Shown here: positions 28,170-33,451 of the stretch, in pieces
How positions within the stretch are numbered: position 1 is the first letter of the stretch
Layout: the number at the start of each line of letters is the position of its first letter
NCBI GenBank assembly: GCA_902785635.1
Contig: CACZZH010000056.1
Span: forward strand, 1-33,451
DNA: 33,451 bases
Direction of reading: 5' to 3'
Origin: an uncultured Lachnospiraceae bacterium
GTDB lineage: Bacteria > Bacillota > Clostridia > Lachnospirales > Lachnospiraceae
Program-made: the position numbers and the translations under genes
Notes under the pieces: model-generated
Told to the model about the DNA's origin: nothing
The model's input: only the letters and a program-made list of their open reading frames with translations
Database searches by the model: none

Positions 28170-29057
28170 ATTCATACCTATCTTCGAGCTATCGGATTTG
28201 GACAGCAGCCTGGATCAGAATATGAGATGGAACAGCTGCTGGACAATCTGTTCCATACATATGATGAACGAAAGATCGTAAAGCTTGAAAACGGAAAGGC
28301 AATGTATGAACTGTCCCGTGCATTCGGACCGCATATGGGGATCCGTGTCTGCGGGGAAGTGGATGGATTCGGCTTTCATCGTCAATACTATTATCCCTAT
28401 CTGGAGGGACACTGCGAAACGACCGATCAGACAGTGATCATCAATACCCGCACGGATGGTGCCGGCTTTATCGGAGAAGCAGAGGACGGGAGAGTAGATA
28501 TCTCACTGATCTTTTATCTGCAAAATCCGGCGGATTATCTGCAGAACAGCTTCATGGGCTACCTTGCGGATCGGAGGATCACGACAACGATCACAGGACT
28601 CGCCTCAGGAGGCGCGATTCTGCTGCCCGGAAAAAGTGACCGGCAGGGAACGCATCGTGAGGAGCGTAATGATTATTACCGGCGTCATGAGCAGATGGTG
28701 ACCGCGGCGAAAAACGGCAGTGAAGAGGCGATCGAAAGCCTGACCATCGAAGACATGGATATCTATGCCATGATCTCAAGGAGAGTGCTGCACGAAGATA
28801 TCCTGACGATTATCGACACATATTTCATGCCTTATGGTATGGAAAGTGATCAGTATCAGATTCTTGGGACGATCCTGTTCTACACAAAGGTACGCAACAG
28901 CATCACCCGTGAATATGTGTATCAGATGACGGTAGACTGCAACGGGATGCTGATCGATCTTTGTATCAATGAAAAGGATCTGCTTGGAGATCCGGAGGAA
29001 GGCCGGCGGTTCAAAGGAAATATCTGGCTGCAGGGAAGGCTGAACCTGGATCATTAA
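28170..29057 (+). CDS. DUF3881-like protein with probable ATT start codon
   Basis: A 295-aa protein resembling the Lachnospiraceae DUF3881 family, function unknown. Sequence-supported start: AGGAGGTGAG (28155-28164) is the best ribosome site around, and the only in-frame start-like codon at proper spacing is ATT at 28170-28172. It gives a product beginning MHTYLRAIGFGQQPGSEYE before the first ATG (28227). An in-frame TGA lies 3 codons earlier, and no ATG, GTG or TTG occurs in between. Without ATT the product would lack 19 residues that look conserved (HTYLRAIGF). ATT starts are very rare (infC). The remaining protein is soluble, mixed alpha/beta, without recognised catalytic motifs. Confidence 0.75.
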   Translation: MHTYLRAIGFGQQPGSEYEMEQLLDNLFHTYDERKIVKLENGKAMYELSRAFGPHMGIRVCGEVDGFGFHRQYYYPYLEGHCETTDQTVIINTRTDGAGFIGEAEDGRVDISLIFYLQNPADYLQNSFMGYLADRRITTTITGLASGGAILLPGKSDRQGTHREERNDYYRRHEQMVTAAKNGSEEAIESLTIEDMDIYAMISRRVLHEDILTIIDTYFMPYGMESDQYQILGTILFYTKVRNSITREYVYQMTVDCNGMLIDLCINEKDLLGDPEEGRRFKGNIWLQGRLNLDH

Positions 29058-29170: not shown

Positions 29171-29647
29171 ATGAGATTATCAACAAAAGGCCGATACGGG
29201 CTGCGCGCTCTTCTGGATGTGGCAGTATATTCCGAGGAAGAGCCGGTCTCGATCCGAAGCATTGCGCAGAGACAGAATATATCAGAGGCATATCTTGAGC
29301 AGCTTATGCCGAAGTTAAAAAAAGCCGGCCTCATCGACAGCCAGCGCGGAGCTTCGGGAGGTTACCGGCTTACGCGTCCGGCGGAGGAGATCTCTGTGGG
29401 AGAGGTACTGCGTGCCCTGGAAGGGGAGCTCGATGCTGTCAACTGCCCGGGACTGAAAGAAGCGGCCTCCGAGGAGGAAGGCTGCTCAGAGGCGCACACC
29501 TGTGTGACAAAGTATGTGTGGCAGAGAATTAATGACAGTATCACAAAAACGGTGGATGAGATCAGCCTGAGCATACTGGTGGAACAGAGCAGACAGATCC
29601 ATGAAGAGAGCAGCGCAAATGTATCCGGAAAGCGTGCATGCTGCTGA
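29171..29647 (+). CDS. Rrf2-family transcriptional regulator, IscR-like
   Basis: A 158-aa winged-helix regulator beginning MRLSTKGRYGLRALLDVAVY, with wing region QRGASGGYRLTRPAEEISV. Three cysteines in the IscR-type region (Cys92 in NCPGL, Cys105, Cys111 in CSEAHTC) could bind a [2Fe-2S] cluster; spacing is a little wider than in E. coli IscR. A C-terminal CC pair ends the protein. It heads the nifS-nifU group and has a palindromic operator just upstream, which supports Fe-S-responsive autoregulation. CymR-like cysteine control is the alternative, but that family lacks the Cys triad. Confidence 0.9.
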   Translation: MRLSTKGRYGLRALLDVAVYSEEEPVSIRSIAQRQNISEAYLEQLMPKLKKAGLIDSQRGASGGYRLTRPAEEISVGEVLRALEGELDAVNCPGLKEAASEEEGCSEAHTCVTKYVWQRINDSITKTVDEISLSILVEQSRQIHEESSANVSGKRACC

Positions 29648-29748
29648 AACGGTTTTTACAGATGACGGTCTGTATGAAGACTGTATTTTCAGCCGCGATC
29701 AACCGTGAGGCGCAGGATTGTTATGAAAAAATATGAGGTAAGGATTCC

Positions 29749-30933
29749 ATGAAAAAAATAATTTATCTGGATAATGCGGCAACTACGAAAACAAGTCCTG
29801 AAGTGGTAGAAGCCATGCTTCCCTATTTTACGGAGCAGTATGGCAATGCTTCTGCCATCTACAGCATCGGAAGCTCCAATAAAGAGGTGATCTCCCGGGC
29901 AAGGAAAGACATTGCGGATGTGCTTGGGGCAAAAGAAAACGAGATCTATTTCACGGCAGGCGGTTCCGAGTCCGATAACTGGGCATTAAAGGCGACCTGT
30001 GAAGCATATGGTGCAAAAGGAAAGCACATCATCACATCAAAGATCGAGCATCATGCAATTCTTCATACCTGCGAATATCTGGAAAAACAGGGCTTTGAAG
30101 TGACCTATGTGGATGTGGATGAAGACGGTGTGATCAAAATGGATGATCTGAAAGCTGCGATTCGTCCGGATACGATTCTGATCTCTGTAATGTTTGCAAA
30201 TAACGAGATCGGAACGATGCAGCCCATCCGGGAGATCGGCGCTCTGGCTCACGAACACGGCATTCTGTTCCATACAGACGCTGTGCAGGCTTTTGGTCAG
30301 GTACCGATCAACGTGGATGATCTGAACATTGACATGCTCAGCTCCAGTGCGCATAAACTTCACGGCCCCAAGGGTATCGGCTTCCTGTATATCCGCAAAG
30401 GCGTAAAGATCCGCTCATTTGTACACGGCGGCGCCCAGGAACGCAAGCGCCGTGCCGGTACGGAAAATGTTCCCGGTATTGTTGGCTTTGCAAAGGCTGC
30501 AAAGATCGCTCAGGAGACAATGGAAGAACGCAGAGCAAAAGAGATCGAACTGCGTGACTATCTGATCGACAGGATCATGGCGGAGATCCCATATACAAAG
30601 CTTAACGGACATCGCACAAACCGTCTTCCAAACAATGCGAACTTCAGTTTCCAGTTCATCGAAGGCGAATCCATGTTGATTCTTCTGGATGATAAGGGAA
30701 TATGTGCTTCCTCCGGATCCGCATGTACATCCGGTTCTCTGGATCCTTCGCATGTACTGCTTGCCATCGGACTGCCTCATGAGATCGCTCACGGTTCACT
30801 GCGTCTGACCCTTTCTGAGGAGACCACGAAGGAAGATATCGATTTTACCGTGGATCAGCTGAAAGCGATCGTAGAGAGACTTCGCAGCATGTCTCCTCTG
30901 TATGAGGATTTCATTCGCAGGCAGGGAAAATAG
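29749..30933 (+). CDS. nifS: Cysteine desulfurase NifS/IscS
   Basis: PLP enzyme that delivers sulfur from cysteine for Fe-S cluster assembly; 394 aa. PLP Lys203 is in SSAHKLHGPKG and catalytic Cys326 in SSGSACTSGS. N-terminal IIYLDNAATTKTSPEV and GGAQERKRRAGTENV are family signatures. The short active-site loop and pairing with a NifU-type scaffold fit the NifS subgroup. It lies 101 nt after the IscR-like gene and 95 nt before nifU. Confidence 0.96.
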   Translation: MKKIIYLDNAATTKTSPEVVEAMLPYFTEQYGNASAIYSIGSSNKEVISRARKDIADVLGAKENEIYFTAGGSESDNWALKATCEAYGAKGKHIITSKIEHHAILHTCEYLEKQGFEVTYVDVDEDGVIKMDDLKAAIRPDTILISVMFANNEIGTMQPIREIGALAHEHGILFHTDAVQAFGQVPINVDDLNIDMLSSSAHKLHGPKGIGFLYIRKGVKIRSFVHGGAQERKRRAGTENVPGIVGFAKAAKIAQETMEERRAKEIELRDYLIDRIMAEIPYTKLNGHRTNRLPNNANFSFQFIEGESMLILLDDKGICASSGSACTSGSLDPSHVLLAIGLPHEIAHGSLRLTLSEETTKEDIDFTVDQLKAIVERLRSMSPLYEDFIRRQGK

Positions 30934-31028
30934 ACCGGTATGAGGTCTTATAAAGTGGAGATGAACTGATAAAGATGATGGGTACAAGAGACCGTTCCTG
31001 TCCCGGAATATTAAAAGGAGAAGAATAA

Positions 31029-31466
31029 ATGTACAGCGAAAAAGTAATGGATCATTTCAACAATCCCCGTAATGTGGGAGAGATCGAAAACGCCAGCGGA
31101 GTCGGCACTGTCGGAAATGCCAAGTGCGGAGATATCATGCGGATGTATCTGGATATCGATGAAAACGGCATCATTCAGGACTGTAAATTCAAGACCTTCG
31201 GCTGCGGTGCTGCTGTTGCCACCAGTTCCATGGCAACAGAACTGGTAAAAGGAAAAACGATCCAGCAGGCGCTGGAAGTGACAAACAAGGCCGTTATGGA
31301 AGCACTGGACGGTCTTCCCCCTGTAAAAGTGCACTGTTCCCTGCTGGCCGAGGAGGCGATCCATGCGGCACTTTGGGACTATGCTGAGAAGAACGGCATC
31401 AAGATCGAAGGTCTCTCAAAACCCAAGAGCGATATCAGCGAAGGAGAGGAAGAAGAGGACTATTGA
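31029..31466 (+). CDS. nifU: Fe-S cluster assembly scaffold NifU/IscU
   Basis: A 145-aa scaffold on which [2Fe-2S] clusters form. Ligands are Cys33 (KCGD, with Asp35), Cys59 (FGCGAA) and Cys103 (HCSLL). It starts MYSEKVMDHFNNPRNVGEIE, typical of the family, with AAAGGAGAA 8 nt upstream. A very acidic tail (EGEEEEDY) is not part of the core fold. No C-terminal Nfu domain is present. The PARG gene starts 4 nt after its stop. Confidence 0.96.
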   Translation: MYSEKVMDHFNNPRNVGEIENASGVGTVGNAKCGDIMRMYLDIDENGIIQDCKFKTFGCGAAVATSSMATELVKGKTIQQALEVTNKAVMEALDGLPPVKVHCSLLAEEAIHAALWDYAEKNGIKIEGLSKPKSDISEGEEEEDY

Positions 31467-31470
31467 CAGC

Positions 31471-32307
31471 ATGAGATCAAGAGTTGCTTTAATACAATCA
31501 TTCAAAGATACCCAGCGTTATATTAAAGAAAACGAACAGCTTCGTGAGGAGACACTGCTTGCAATGGCAGCAACAACGCTGTATCTGGAAGGCTACGAAT
31601 CTTTTAATCCATCAATAAAGGTCGGGACTGCGAAGATCCGTGTGACCGAAGATACTACATTCCATTGTGCACAGACTCTGGTGAGCGAAACAAATGCAGA
31701 AGGTAAAGTAGCTGTTCTGAATTTCGCAAATGCGTATACTCCGGGCGGCGGAGTCACCGACGGCGCAGGTGCTCAGGAAGAATGTCTTTGCAGAAGCAGC
31801 AATCTTTACAACTGCCTGAATGTCCCGTATCTTCTGAAAAATTATTATAAATGGAATCGGAAGAACACGGGGGACATGGGAACGGATGCGCTGATCTACA
31901 CCTCCGGAGTGACTGTGTTTAAGACGGATGATGACATTCCGGAAATGATGGAGAAGGAAAACTGGTTTAAAACCGATGTCATTACCAGTGCAGCGCCATA
32001 TTATGATTCCTTCCGAAAAAAACCTGTGACTATGGAAACACTTGGAAATGTATTCTTCGGACGGATCAGGAATATTCTGGAAGTGGCAGCGGCCAATAAT
32101 GTGGATGCTCTTGTGCTGGGTGCATTCGGATGCGGGGCCTTCAACAATCCGCCTGATCTGGTGGCAGAGCAGTTCCGCAAACTTCTTATAGACCGCGGGT
32201 ACGGCCGGTTTTTCAAGGAGATCGTGTTTGCGATCAAAAAAAATGATACCCGGAATTCCAATTTTGAAGCATTTCAGGCAGCGTTCAGCGCAGATATTGT
32301 TTCATAA
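31471..32307 (+). CDS. Microbial-type poly(ADP-ribose) glycohydrolase (TIGR02452-like)
   Basis: A 278-aa macrodomain-fold protein of the bacterial-type PARG family (TIGR02452), expected to cleave ADP-ribose from modified proteins or polymer. The catalytic loop is clear: NFANAYTPGGGVTDGAGAQE, with the GGG at residues 92-94 and the QEE at 102-104. The C-terminal region carries GAFGCGAFNNPPDLVAEQF, also typical. ATG at 31471 is chosen since an in-frame start at 31363 lies within nifU. The 4-nt gap to nifU implies co-translation with Fe-S genes. Substrate is unknown; no ADP-ribosyltransferase gene is in the window. Confidence 0.88.
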   Translation: MRSRVALIQSFKDTQRYIKENEQLREETLLAMAATTLYLEGYESFNPSIKVGTAKIRVTEDTTFHCAQTLVSETNAEGKVAVLNFANAYTPGGGVTDGAGAQEECLCRSSNLYNCLNVPYLLKNYYKWNRKNTGDMGTDALIYTSGVTVFKTDDDIPEMMEKENWFKTDVITSAAPYYDSFRKKPVTMETLGNVFFGRIRNILEVAAANNVDALVLGAFGCGAFNNPPDLVAEQFRKLLIDRGYGRFFKEIVFAIKKNDTRNSNFEAFQAAFSADIVS

Positions 32308-32503
32308 CAGTTTAAGCTTCCCGGGATCTCTTCGGAAAGCTTAACAGAATCACAGGTTCGTGCAATAAAAGCTGTGCAATAAAAAGAAAAAAGGATTGGA
32401 CAGAAGAGATAGAATCGTGTATTATAGATATGTTCATCTGATCGCAGATTAACATCGGGCAGCAGGGTTCGTTCTGAGCGCCGATCAGATCTGGATCAAA
32501 TAC
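32308..32503 (+). promoter_or_regulatory. Leader with sigma-A promoter for the tRNA-Arg-like array
   Basis: No gene. A hairpin TTAAGCTTCC / GGAAAGCTTAA (32312-32344) follows the PARG stop but lacks a U tract. A good promoter follows: TTGGAC (32396-32401), 18-nt spacer, TATTAT (32420-32425). Transcription would begin about 32432, some 70 nt before the first tRNA-like unit at 32504. Confidence 0.7.
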
Positions 32504-32774
32504 GTCTACGTAGCTCAGCAGGATAGAGCGACCGCCTCCTAAAAAGCAGGCGATGCAGAAAGCCAGGTTGAGTAAGGCGGGAACACTCCGGTTCGAACAG
32601 AGTCGGAAAATTACAGCAGGTTTCACACGAGTTGTTTTGCAAAAGGGTTCAGTCCCTGTGAAACCGGAAATTTTCATCAGTTGTCTCCGGACGACGAAAG
32701 CCGTCCGAGATCATAAACACGGCAGCCACAGCCGATTGGCGAAAAACCCAGTGTTTAAGCCAAAAAATGGGCAT
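32504..32774 (+). ncRNA. tRNA-Arg(CCU)-like unit 1
   Basis: Its first 39 nt (32504-32542) are identical to the 5' half of the complete tRNA at 33337: acceptor 5' strand GTCTACG, D-arm and anticodon loop CTCCTAA. Then it diverges: CGCCT/AGGCG could close an altered anticodon hairpin. GTTCGAA lies at +87, flanked by ACTC/GAGT. No acceptor 3' strand is visible. The tail holds a 9-bp hairpin GGTTTCACA/TGTGAAACC, the shared AAACCGGAAA (32661-32670), CGGACG/CGTCCG, and the conserved terminal hairpin with GTGTTTAAGCC (32751-32761). Confidence 0.75.
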
Positions 32775-33057
32775 GTCTACGTAGCTCAGCAGGATAGAGC
32801 ACTCGCCTCCTAAGACTGGCACTACGGCTATCCGGCGAAAAATCAGAGAAACTGCTCTGAAGTTCGAAATGAGTCTCGGACAAGTACTTTTACAAACTAT
32901 AGAGCGCCGCCAAAAAACGGCGCACCATACTTTCCAGTGTGTATGCTTCCTGCTAACGGATTTCAGTCAAAAAACCGGGAAATGTTAGCAGAGAATCATA
33001 AATCGGTTACCGGCCGAATGGTGAAAAACCCCGTGTTTAAGCCAAAAATCCGGATAC
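32775..33057 (+). ncRNA. tRNA-Arg(CCU)-like unit 2
   Basis: Starts with GTCTACG and the same D-arm and CCTCCTAA loop. The anticodon-stem 5' strand differs (CACTCGCC) and TCGCC can pair with GGCGA about 25 nt on. GTTCGAA lies at +87, enclosed by GCTC/GAGT. The acceptor 3' strand CTCGGAC (32875-32881) pairs with five of seven 5' bases. The tail contains GCGCCG/CGGCGC, the 8-bp stem CTGCTAAC/GTTAGCAG and the shared AAACCGGGAA. It ends with a terminal hairpin carrying GTGTTTAAGCC (33033-33043) and a wobble-preserving change in its stem (TGGT/GCCA). Confidence 0.78.
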
Positions 33058-33336
33058 GTCTACGTAGCTCAGCAGGATAGAGCGACCGCCTCCTAAGAAG
33101 GTGGCATAGCTGAACCCTGAGCTGAAAGGCAATTGTATTCTGAAGTTCGAAATGAGTCTTGGACGTTGAAAAATTTACATCGAAGCGTTTTTGAAAAGCG
33201 TATGGTACGATGTAAACCCTGCGTATGTTTCCAGCTAACAAAAAGGTATCAAAAACCGGAAAATGTTAGCTGAGGATCATAAATCGGTTACCGACCGATT
33301 GGCGAAAACCCAGTGTTTAAGCCAAAAATCGGATAC
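33058..33336 (+). ncRNA. tRNA-Arg(CCU)-like unit 3
   Basis: Starts with the intact 5' half (39 nt). CCGCC and GGTGG can form an altered anticodon stem exposing TCCTAAGAA. GTTCGAA lies at +87, enclosed by ATTC/GAGT. The acceptor 3' strand CTTGGAC (33158-33164) pairs with six of seven 5' bases, so this unit is the closest to a foldable tRNA with an extra 34 nt. The tail has TTTACATCG/CGATGTAAA (9 bp), CAGCTAACA/TGTTAGCTG (9 bp), AAACCGGAAA, AATCGG/CCGATT and the terminal hairpin. Confidence 0.8.
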
Positions 33337-33410
33337 GTCTACGTAGCTCAGCAGGATAGAGCGACCGCCTCCTAAGCGGTAGGTCGGAGGTTCGAATCCC
33401 CTCGTGGACG
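33337..33410 (+). tRNA. tRNA-Arg (CCT anticodon)
   Basis: Complete 74-nt cloverleaf: acceptor GTCTACG/CGTGGAC, D stem GCTC/GAGC, anticodon stem ACCGC/GCGGT with loop CTCCTAA (anticodon CCT, reads AGG), variable AGGTC, T loop TTCGAAT. Discriminator is G; CCA is not encoded. The T stem GGAGG/CCCCT has an A-C mismatch at its middle pair and a G-T outer pair, unusual for a functional tRNA. It is the last of four tandem tRNA-Arg-type 5' halves and the only complete one. Confidence 0.93.
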
Positions 33411-33451
33411 GCCTGAAAAGAGTGGAATGTGTTAGCTGGCGGATAGCCGGC
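33411..33451. other. Array tail cut by window edge
   Basis: After the tRNA comes TGTTAGCTGGCGGAT (about 33429-33443), resembling TGTTAGCTGAGGAT in the tail of unit 3. Unit-type sequence therefore appears to resume beyond the complete tRNA and may continue past the window. Confidence 0.45.

Follow-up and report, generated by a model that had tools for sequence, protein, structure and literature searches.

The tandem accretion of ICEs, IMEs and CIMEs at tRNA genes is a described process, exemplified by the tRNA-Lys gene of S. agalactiae (PMC5704250), and a family of Rhizobium phages carries a replacement tRNA-Leu (PMC8631192). Insertion into tRNA genes, replacement tRNAs carried by the inserting element and serial accretion are known in principle from these reports and from PMC3146451, and the original prediction, which held that no known arrangement explains the array described here, has to be revised on this point. 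The array is, with high confidence, read as the stacked left ends of ICEs that inserted serially in the anticodon loop of tRNA-Arg(CCU), each with a leader, here called X, and its own complete tRNA. It is very likely that the elements integrated one into another; the array does not consist of independent tRNA decoys belonging to one family.

The window, i.e., the whole stretch of 33,451 nucleotides that was analysed, comes from an uncultured Lachnospiraceae bacterium (contig CACZZH010000056.1; genome G000 in the comparisons below). The 5' half of tRNA-Arg(CCU), which extends from the acceptor strand to the anticodon loop, is present in four copies that start at positions 32504, 32775, 33058 and 33337, spaced by 271, 283 and 279 nt, and the last copy is the sole tRNA among the four according to ARAGORN and Rfam (33337-33410 in Rfam); both the copy positions and the restriction of a normal 3' half to the last copy had been predicted correctly. 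The promoter expected about 70 nt before the first copy was also found, as a sigma-70-like site on the + strand (TGGACA-17-TATTAT, 32397-32425, 10/12 matches) located 78 nt upstream of the first 5' half; the scan of this region returned two promoter-like sites, one per strand, with 1.1 expected. This promoter is predicted to transcribe the entire stack.

All features of the array lie on the + strand. The first 5' half (32504-32542) belongs to a split tRNA-Arg(CCU) and forms the chromosomal end of the stack, its last seven bases (32536-32542) being the core CTCCTAA, placed there by comparison with right ends. It is followed by leader X1 of the first element (32543-32774, conserved 3' domain 32683-32774), of which a very similar version is present in relatives G003 and G011. 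The second 5' half (32775-32813, core 32807-32813) is read as the front part of the tRNA that the first element brought and the next one split, and precedes leader X2 of the second element (32814-33057, 3' domain 32945-33057). In the same manner, the third 5' half (33058-33096, core 33090-33096) would be the front part of the tRNA brought by the second element and split by the third, whose leader X3 (33097-33336, 3' domain 33227-33336) leads into the complete tRNA-Arg(CCU) carried by the third element (33337-33410, core 33369-33375), the next target. Positions 33411-33451 hold the start of a post-tRNA hairpin with a TTAGC word, compared by eye with loci L048 and L093. The contig stops at 33451, within this hairpin (by eye), and therefore what follows the tRNA was invisible when the original prediction was made. 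That prediction described three units that share the 5' half and then differ from each other. The shared half stands, but the units also have in common a conserved 3' domain after the anticodon loop and the T-arm-like sequence GUUCGA, 47-48 nt past the core in all three window units and 46-49 nt past it in 12 of the 24 X's compared.

The genes neighbouring the array in the window look chromosomal and encode ParA, ParB, SerRS, a DUF3881 protein, an Rrf2-type regulator, a class-V aminotransferase, a NifU-like and a PARG-like protein. The DUF3881 gene (28227-29057, + strand) has a homologue directly upstream of tRNA-Arg(CCU) in genome G068, for which it is the only homologue in the window's own genome (39% identity), and C-termini similar to DUF3881 precede the tRNA in several other relatives (by eye). 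The last four of the genes listed lie between DUF3881 and the array in the window (29171-32307), while the DUF3881 homologue of G068 adjoins the tRNA.

With the last window unit as the query, 36 of 61 genomes gave a match, mostly through the tRNA part alone. At least two such 5' halves within 400 bp were found in at least nine of the 61 genomes, own genome included (G000, G003, G011, G017, G019, G025, G027, G028 and G057), so that the array is not unique to the genome of the window. Confinement of the units to that genome had been named beforehand as a result that would speak against the original prediction; this sequence comparison was carried out, and homologues were found in named Lachnospiraceae genomes. 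The stacks end in a complete tRNA-Arg(CCU), or in G028 at the contig edge, and their units fall into a long (~220-320 nt) and a short class (~100-125 nt). A second stack-like place exists in the own genome on contig C169 (L028/L048), where the second tRNA-Arg(CCU) of this genome, element-borne and with a changed D-arm, has a lower Rfam score of 43.2 bits and is possibly decaying. Variant or decayed tRNA-Arg copies (e.g., GTCCCAGTACCTCAGCAGG) were also seen by eye in or before stacks at L037 (G017), L041 (G015) and L196 (G699), hinting at older insertions.

The insertion point can be delimited by comparing X's behind different host sequences. X plus tRNA are alike in G190 and G352 behind different host halves, and the X of the L097 type occurs near-identical, with few base changes, behind four different host halves, namely those of Mordavella and Blautia An249 (same half), Sellimonas, Ca. 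Mediterraneibacter quadrami and an uncultured Lachnoclostridium. Identity behind the different halves starts at CTCCTAAG, which is present at all ten right ends scored for pairing, and the first X base after CTCCTAA is A, C or G. Therefore, the core is the 7-bp sequence CTCCTAA, the whole anticodon loop. Several elements occupy one site by this same core in G699 and in Blautia An249, where, as in L145, two identical X units stand in tandem.

When the stacks were read by eye, the acceptor and anticodon stems were often found to differ among the copies, and the last 5' half fits its own 3' half. These differences led to the prediction that the missing 3' halves are located elsewhere. A pattern search of 15 genomes returned six orphan 3' halves in four genomes (two each in G000 and G057, and one each in G019 and G027), every one of them after unrelated sequence ending at TCCTAAG; 11 further genomes gave three in three (G068, G103 and G352), and one more on a G190 stretch brought the total to ten. 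Scored against fifteen 5' halves, nine of the ten orphans reach 12 of 12 pairs (5/5 + 7/7) with a half of the same genome, the means with halves of other genomes being 7.1-9.6 of 12, while the G190 orphan reaches just 10/12 with its own half (4/5 + 6/7). Some pairs between genomes also attain 12/12 (e.g., G057 with G027), and the two G057 orphans are identical in sequence. Since several mismatched half-joins are also accepted by ARAGORN, the argument rests on the pairing count and not on this program.

The orphan at G000:C98:13536 reaches 12/12 (5/5 + 7/7) with window copy 2 only, among all 15 halves, and the tRNA of this copy is intact in relative G003, behind an X1-like leader. After this orphan stands a ParB gene (PF02195, 2e-14, cut by the contig end), which belongs to the left body of the element that carried the split tRNA. 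The right end on the same contig (L083:13250-13390) contains a stretch of ~50 bp with GGCAATGGTGGCCAATGTTTATGATC directly repeated, which by eye resembles X1 on the other strand. In the own genome (~79% complete), only two orphans were found (C98 and C95), those for window copies 1 and 3 being absent from the matches, and the pattern search gave none in five of the nine stacked genomes (G003, G011, G017, G025 and G028). The tRNA-like 5' halves are what integration left at the front of different tRNA-Arg(CCU) genes, the back pieces of which lie far away.

Right ends adjoin the orphan 3' halves, and ICE genes together with a tyrosine integrase are found at such right ends. The G190 element (~69 kb, C25:27,698-96,715), the only one examined for the full set of conjugation genes, encodes a relaxase (PF03432), a coupling protein (PF02534) and VirB4 (CD1110 family, 1118 bits), besides ParB-ParA-ParB, RepA_N, a CD1108-family protein, topoisomerase III (TopB), an ArdC-like protein, a SpaA/thioester protein, an HTH_17 protein with weak similarity to Tn916 Xis and, near the right end, a 463-aa tyrosine integrase. 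In G057, a 473-aa integrase lies ~700 bp from a right end, and identity among the right-end integrases of G190, G027 and G057 is 55-71%. Three of the 61 genomes (G017, G027 and G057) have this integrase clade at E<=1e-60, all of them among the nine stacked ones (hypergeometric 0.002). The own genome has no intact integrase of the clade at this threshold, and a 91-aa integrase remnant (74%) lies there ~500 bp from the right end on C95. Between its two cores, the G068 element measures 25,945 bp, and joining the flanks restores a tRNA-Arg(CCT) cloverleaf; it contains ParB-ParA-ParB, a VirB4 fragment (below cut-off), an IS1634 transposase, a Fic gene and, at L122:1263-1336, a complete replacement tRNA-Arg(CCU) with the same anticodon, and a search of its contig for an integrase gave no match. 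Elements that carry the unit at their left end range from ~17 to ~69 kb, with their genes standing behind the complete tRNA, and features of ICEs are present among them: a tyrosine integrase at one end, conjugation genes (in G190), and attL and attR with a common core and a restorable empty site.

Two further observations were made at these elements. A streptomycin-adenylyltransferase-like gene adjoins the right end of a tRNA-Arg(CCU) element in G027 (L085:9668-10549 on C52). Moreover, a Clostridiales-1 RNA (RF01699, 103.9 bits) follows the replacement tRNA of the G190 element and overlaps the start of ParB (L127:2395-2550, equal to L093:2050-2205); this RNA is listed in PMC2864571, and three above-cut-off copies occur in the own genome on other contigs. 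It was rejected as a standard part of the elements, being present at 1 of 12 loci only. A phage origin was rejected as well, since none of 28 IMG/VR motif matches precedes a tRNA-Arg (by eye); a coverage of 80% of X plus tRNA is reached by no phage or plasmid record, and the best 10 of each set match the tRNA part only.

The mechanism proposed for the stacks is as follows. The integrase would recombine the core CTCCTAA, as tyrosine integrases do at other tRNA genes, and each element would split the tRNA gene it enters while supplying a complete replacement behind X. Because the replacement tRNA keeps the core, it would become the next target, and left ends would consequently pile up before an intact tRNA. 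A terminator-like hairpin follows the replacement tRNA (by eye), which defines the unit as one or more 5' halves, X and tRNA. After integration, the captured host tRNA promoter would transcribe the 5' halves, the X's and the tRNA together. Six right ends, i.e., the near-identical three of G068, G190 and G352 and those of G103, C98 and C95 (L123:6650-6760, L124, L180, L125, L083 and L084), have in common a promoter-like TRGA..-17-TATRRT (by eye) and a leader ATCTG[AG]TCAAT..AATAT that read towards the core, and the right end of G699 is without the ATCTG[AG]TCAAT leader. In an excised circle, transcription from such a right-end promoter would cross the core and continue into X and the tRNA, and RNase P would then free the tRNA from X. 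The least certain step is the last one, in which the 3' domain of X, as a leader that assists folding and processing, would make the tRNA usable both after integration and in the circle.

The stacks are not necessarily complete records of these insertions. In G699, a left stack and a junction of right end, core, X and tRNA lie ~24 kb apart on one contig, X standing there without a 5' half, which suggests that left-end cores may be used too. Recombination between two cores would delete the bodies between them and leave short stacks. Some element bodies are absent in G352 and G699 and, considering also the incomplete pairing of the G190 orphan, part of each stack is probably the scar of later deletions rather than a complete nest.

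A covariance model built of the 3' domain of X matched 13 of 397 genomes of the family (E<=0.01) and six of 392 genomes of the order (E<=0.001), all six within the family and the own genome being counted in both sets. Leaving aside the own genome and G011, 11 loci remain, and at nine of them the matched X stands directly before a complete tRNA-Arg(CCU); in L100 a split 5' half comes after X and the complete tRNA one unit later, and in L101 the contig ends. In addition, a DNA motif of X was located on 19 contigs of the GTDB set, belonging to named Lachnospiraceae genera and MAGs, some labelled only Clostridia or Eubacterium; on two of them (L143 and L151), the parser saw no 5' half. Rfam lists no family for X, only tRNA being matched at E up to 1, and the nearest approach is a tRNA match of 28.5 bits, under the cut-off of 29, that spans the host half and X in L096.

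In their 3' part, the long units resemble a structured RNA with complementary pairing that is particular to each element. In 20 distinct X's, a hairpin follows an AUAAA-like motif, and its loop is often complementary to the strand that abuts the tRNA, with a conserved GGC...GCC hairpin between the two, so that the domain is predicted to form a pseudoknot that ends at the replacement tRNA. The summed pairing energy of the X's with their own partners was reached by 2 of 20,000 permutations for the 20 X's and by 38 of 20,000 for 14 representatives, and the longest Watson-Crick run was equalled in 24 and 574 of 20,000, respectively. The own partner is the best of 20 in four of the 20 X's, and L100a, L136, L144 and G003_1 pair poorly. 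Folded as single sequences, the three units of the window are more stable than their shuffled versions (z of -3.9, -2.8 and -2.9).

Most likely, X functions as a leader that helps the replacement tRNA to fold and to be processed. Its main rival is a role in recombination, in which the elements and their integration are as described and X acts as DNA, being part of the recombination site for the binding of integrase, excisionase or ParB. This alternative is considered rather unlikely. X lies within the attachment region; the arm-like word TTAGC occurs seven times in the 520 bp from the start of the G190 tRNA, versus 0.2 per control window, although only once in the last 420 bp of the right end; it is also found inside X2 and X3; and part of the X domain is near-palindromic in several elements (by eye). 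However, pairing partners change together with complementarity kept between elements, which a protein site would not require, and the pairing strand touches the tRNA.

Returning to X as a leader RNA, it is possible, though tentative, that it represents a new class of mobile-element leader in which a pseudoknot is joined to a tRNA, the host promoter is taken over at integration, the decoding of AGG is kept through any number of insertions and one tRNA gene becomes an open-ended landing platform in gut Lachnospiraceae. The chimeric RNA of 5' half and X, which would be made only from the integrated copy, may in turn report integration to the element. Several other properties of X were considered and set aside. 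Insulation, whereby X would keep the upstream 5' halves off the last 3' half, is not claimed, the native sequence exceeding all 12 shuffles in one of six arrays in a weak fold test (the reference pairs were MFE pairs, which for several tRNAs did not form the cloverleaf); this outcome also counts against the leader role of X. An antisense right-end RNA acting against X, prompted by reverse-complement-like bits of X1 in L083 and L084 (by eye), was dropped because the complete G068 element offers X no complement of >=11 nt save the 12-bp helix internal to X itself. No promoter was seen by eye within long X's, and the sole + strand site in the scan of the window stack is the one preceding copy 1; the short X's L033, L142 and L145 end in a promoter-like stretch (by eye). 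Finally, the X of the L097 type (e.g., L122:1025-1262) contains a short reading frame with a possible ribosome-binding site, and a small ORF was rejected as a feature of X, as it was seen in this type only (both by eye).

A more distant alternative is that 5' half and X form one RNA gene, i.e., a tRNA-derived regulator or decoy acting in trans on ArgRS, AGG decoding or an anticodon nuclease. The conserved structure of X, with the T-arm-like GUUCGA in half of the X's compared, the promoter-like site ahead of the stack and the sub-threshold tRNA match of L096 agree with such RNAs. Nevertheless, near-identical X's come after different host 5' halves, so that the half belongs to the host and has not co-evolved with X; distant 3' halves exist and pair with the 5' halves; and X follows a right end without any 5' half at the G699 junction. 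A decoy RNA is therefore improbable, and none of the present results points to decoys, regulators of ArgRS or targets of an anticodon nuclease. The family of tRNA-derived structured RNAs originally envisaged survives in part: relatives exist and the 3' part of the long units looks structured, but the tRNA-like 5' halves are the fronts of split genes.

Slightly less probable still is an integron-like array, in which the ~280-bp units would be mobile cassettes captured singly at the tRNA. The regular short units, the fixed site, the single promoter and the direct cores between units recall such arrays, but the unit sits at the left end of elements of tens of kilobases and the integrase does not score as an IntI, reaching 34-40 bits with the NCBIfam integron-integrase model versus a cut-off of 265. 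A group I intron in tRNA-Arg(CCU) is known from Agrobacterium and was rejected here, as Rfam gives tRNA only at E up to 1 and the neighbouring half is another 5' half. The tandem duplication and decay of one tRNA gene into pseudogenes by slippage or unequal crossover would account for alike units of which the last alone is complete, but it is hardly credible and already contradicted by stems that differ between copies in several stacks and fit distant orphan 3' halves, by X's of unrelated sequence that begin exactly at the core and by the element genes behind the complete tRNA.

Serial integration of ICEs provides an explanation for the puzzling 'partial tRNA arrays' of gut Firmicutes and for contigs that break off at tRNA-Arg(CCU), both of which can be understood as stacked integration ends. 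It also supplies an exact signature (5' half, CTCCTAA, X and complete tRNA) by which such elements can be found and counted, one of them having an aminoglycoside adenylyltransferase-like gene beside its right end. Moreover, it poses the question of how a cell retains a needed tRNA while its gene is split repeatedly, to which X may hold the answer; as a putative structured leader absent from Rfam, X is accessible to simple pre-tRNA assays.

The closest family for these elements is presumably that of the Tn1549/CTn-like conjugative transposons of Clostridia. Both have in common a CD1110-family VirB4, a CD1108-family protein, topoisomerase III, an ArdC-like protein, RepA_N and ParAB, whereas the elements described here are specific for tRNA-Arg(CCU), have an integrase clade of their own and carry X and a tRNA. 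In S. agalactiae, as here, elements with the same target accumulate in tandem at one tRNA gene and decayed members keep their att ends; however, the direct repeat there includes the end of the target gene, which stays whole, while here the anticodon loop is cut, a new complete tRNA is brought in and 5' halves are stacked upstream (PMC5704250). The ssrA islands of Dehalococcoides also form long tandem series at a single small-RNA gene, each of the many islands having its direct repeat, but they use a serine recombinase at the 3' end (T-loop) of the tmRNA and leave 3'-end repeats over up to 100 kb, in contrast to the compact 5' halves found here (PMC3146451). In the Rhizobium system, the element likewise splits a tRNA and encodes a substitute, although it is a phage and not an ICE with a leader X; its substitute lacks the 12-bp target, which according to its authors prevents super-integration, whereas here the substitute keeps the core and stacking follows (PMC8631192). 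Accretion at tRNA genes (PMC5704250), tandem ssrA islands (PMC3146451) and replacement tRNAs (PMC8631192) are already in print. Among the matches listed in a search of the literature, from which most subscription journals are excluded, none described X or the stacking of tRNA-Arg(CCU) 5' halves in Lachnospiraceae. What appears to be new is the 3' domain of the long X's, a domain absent from Rfam, with a predicted pseudoknot and a putative function as a leader of the tRNA that follows it.
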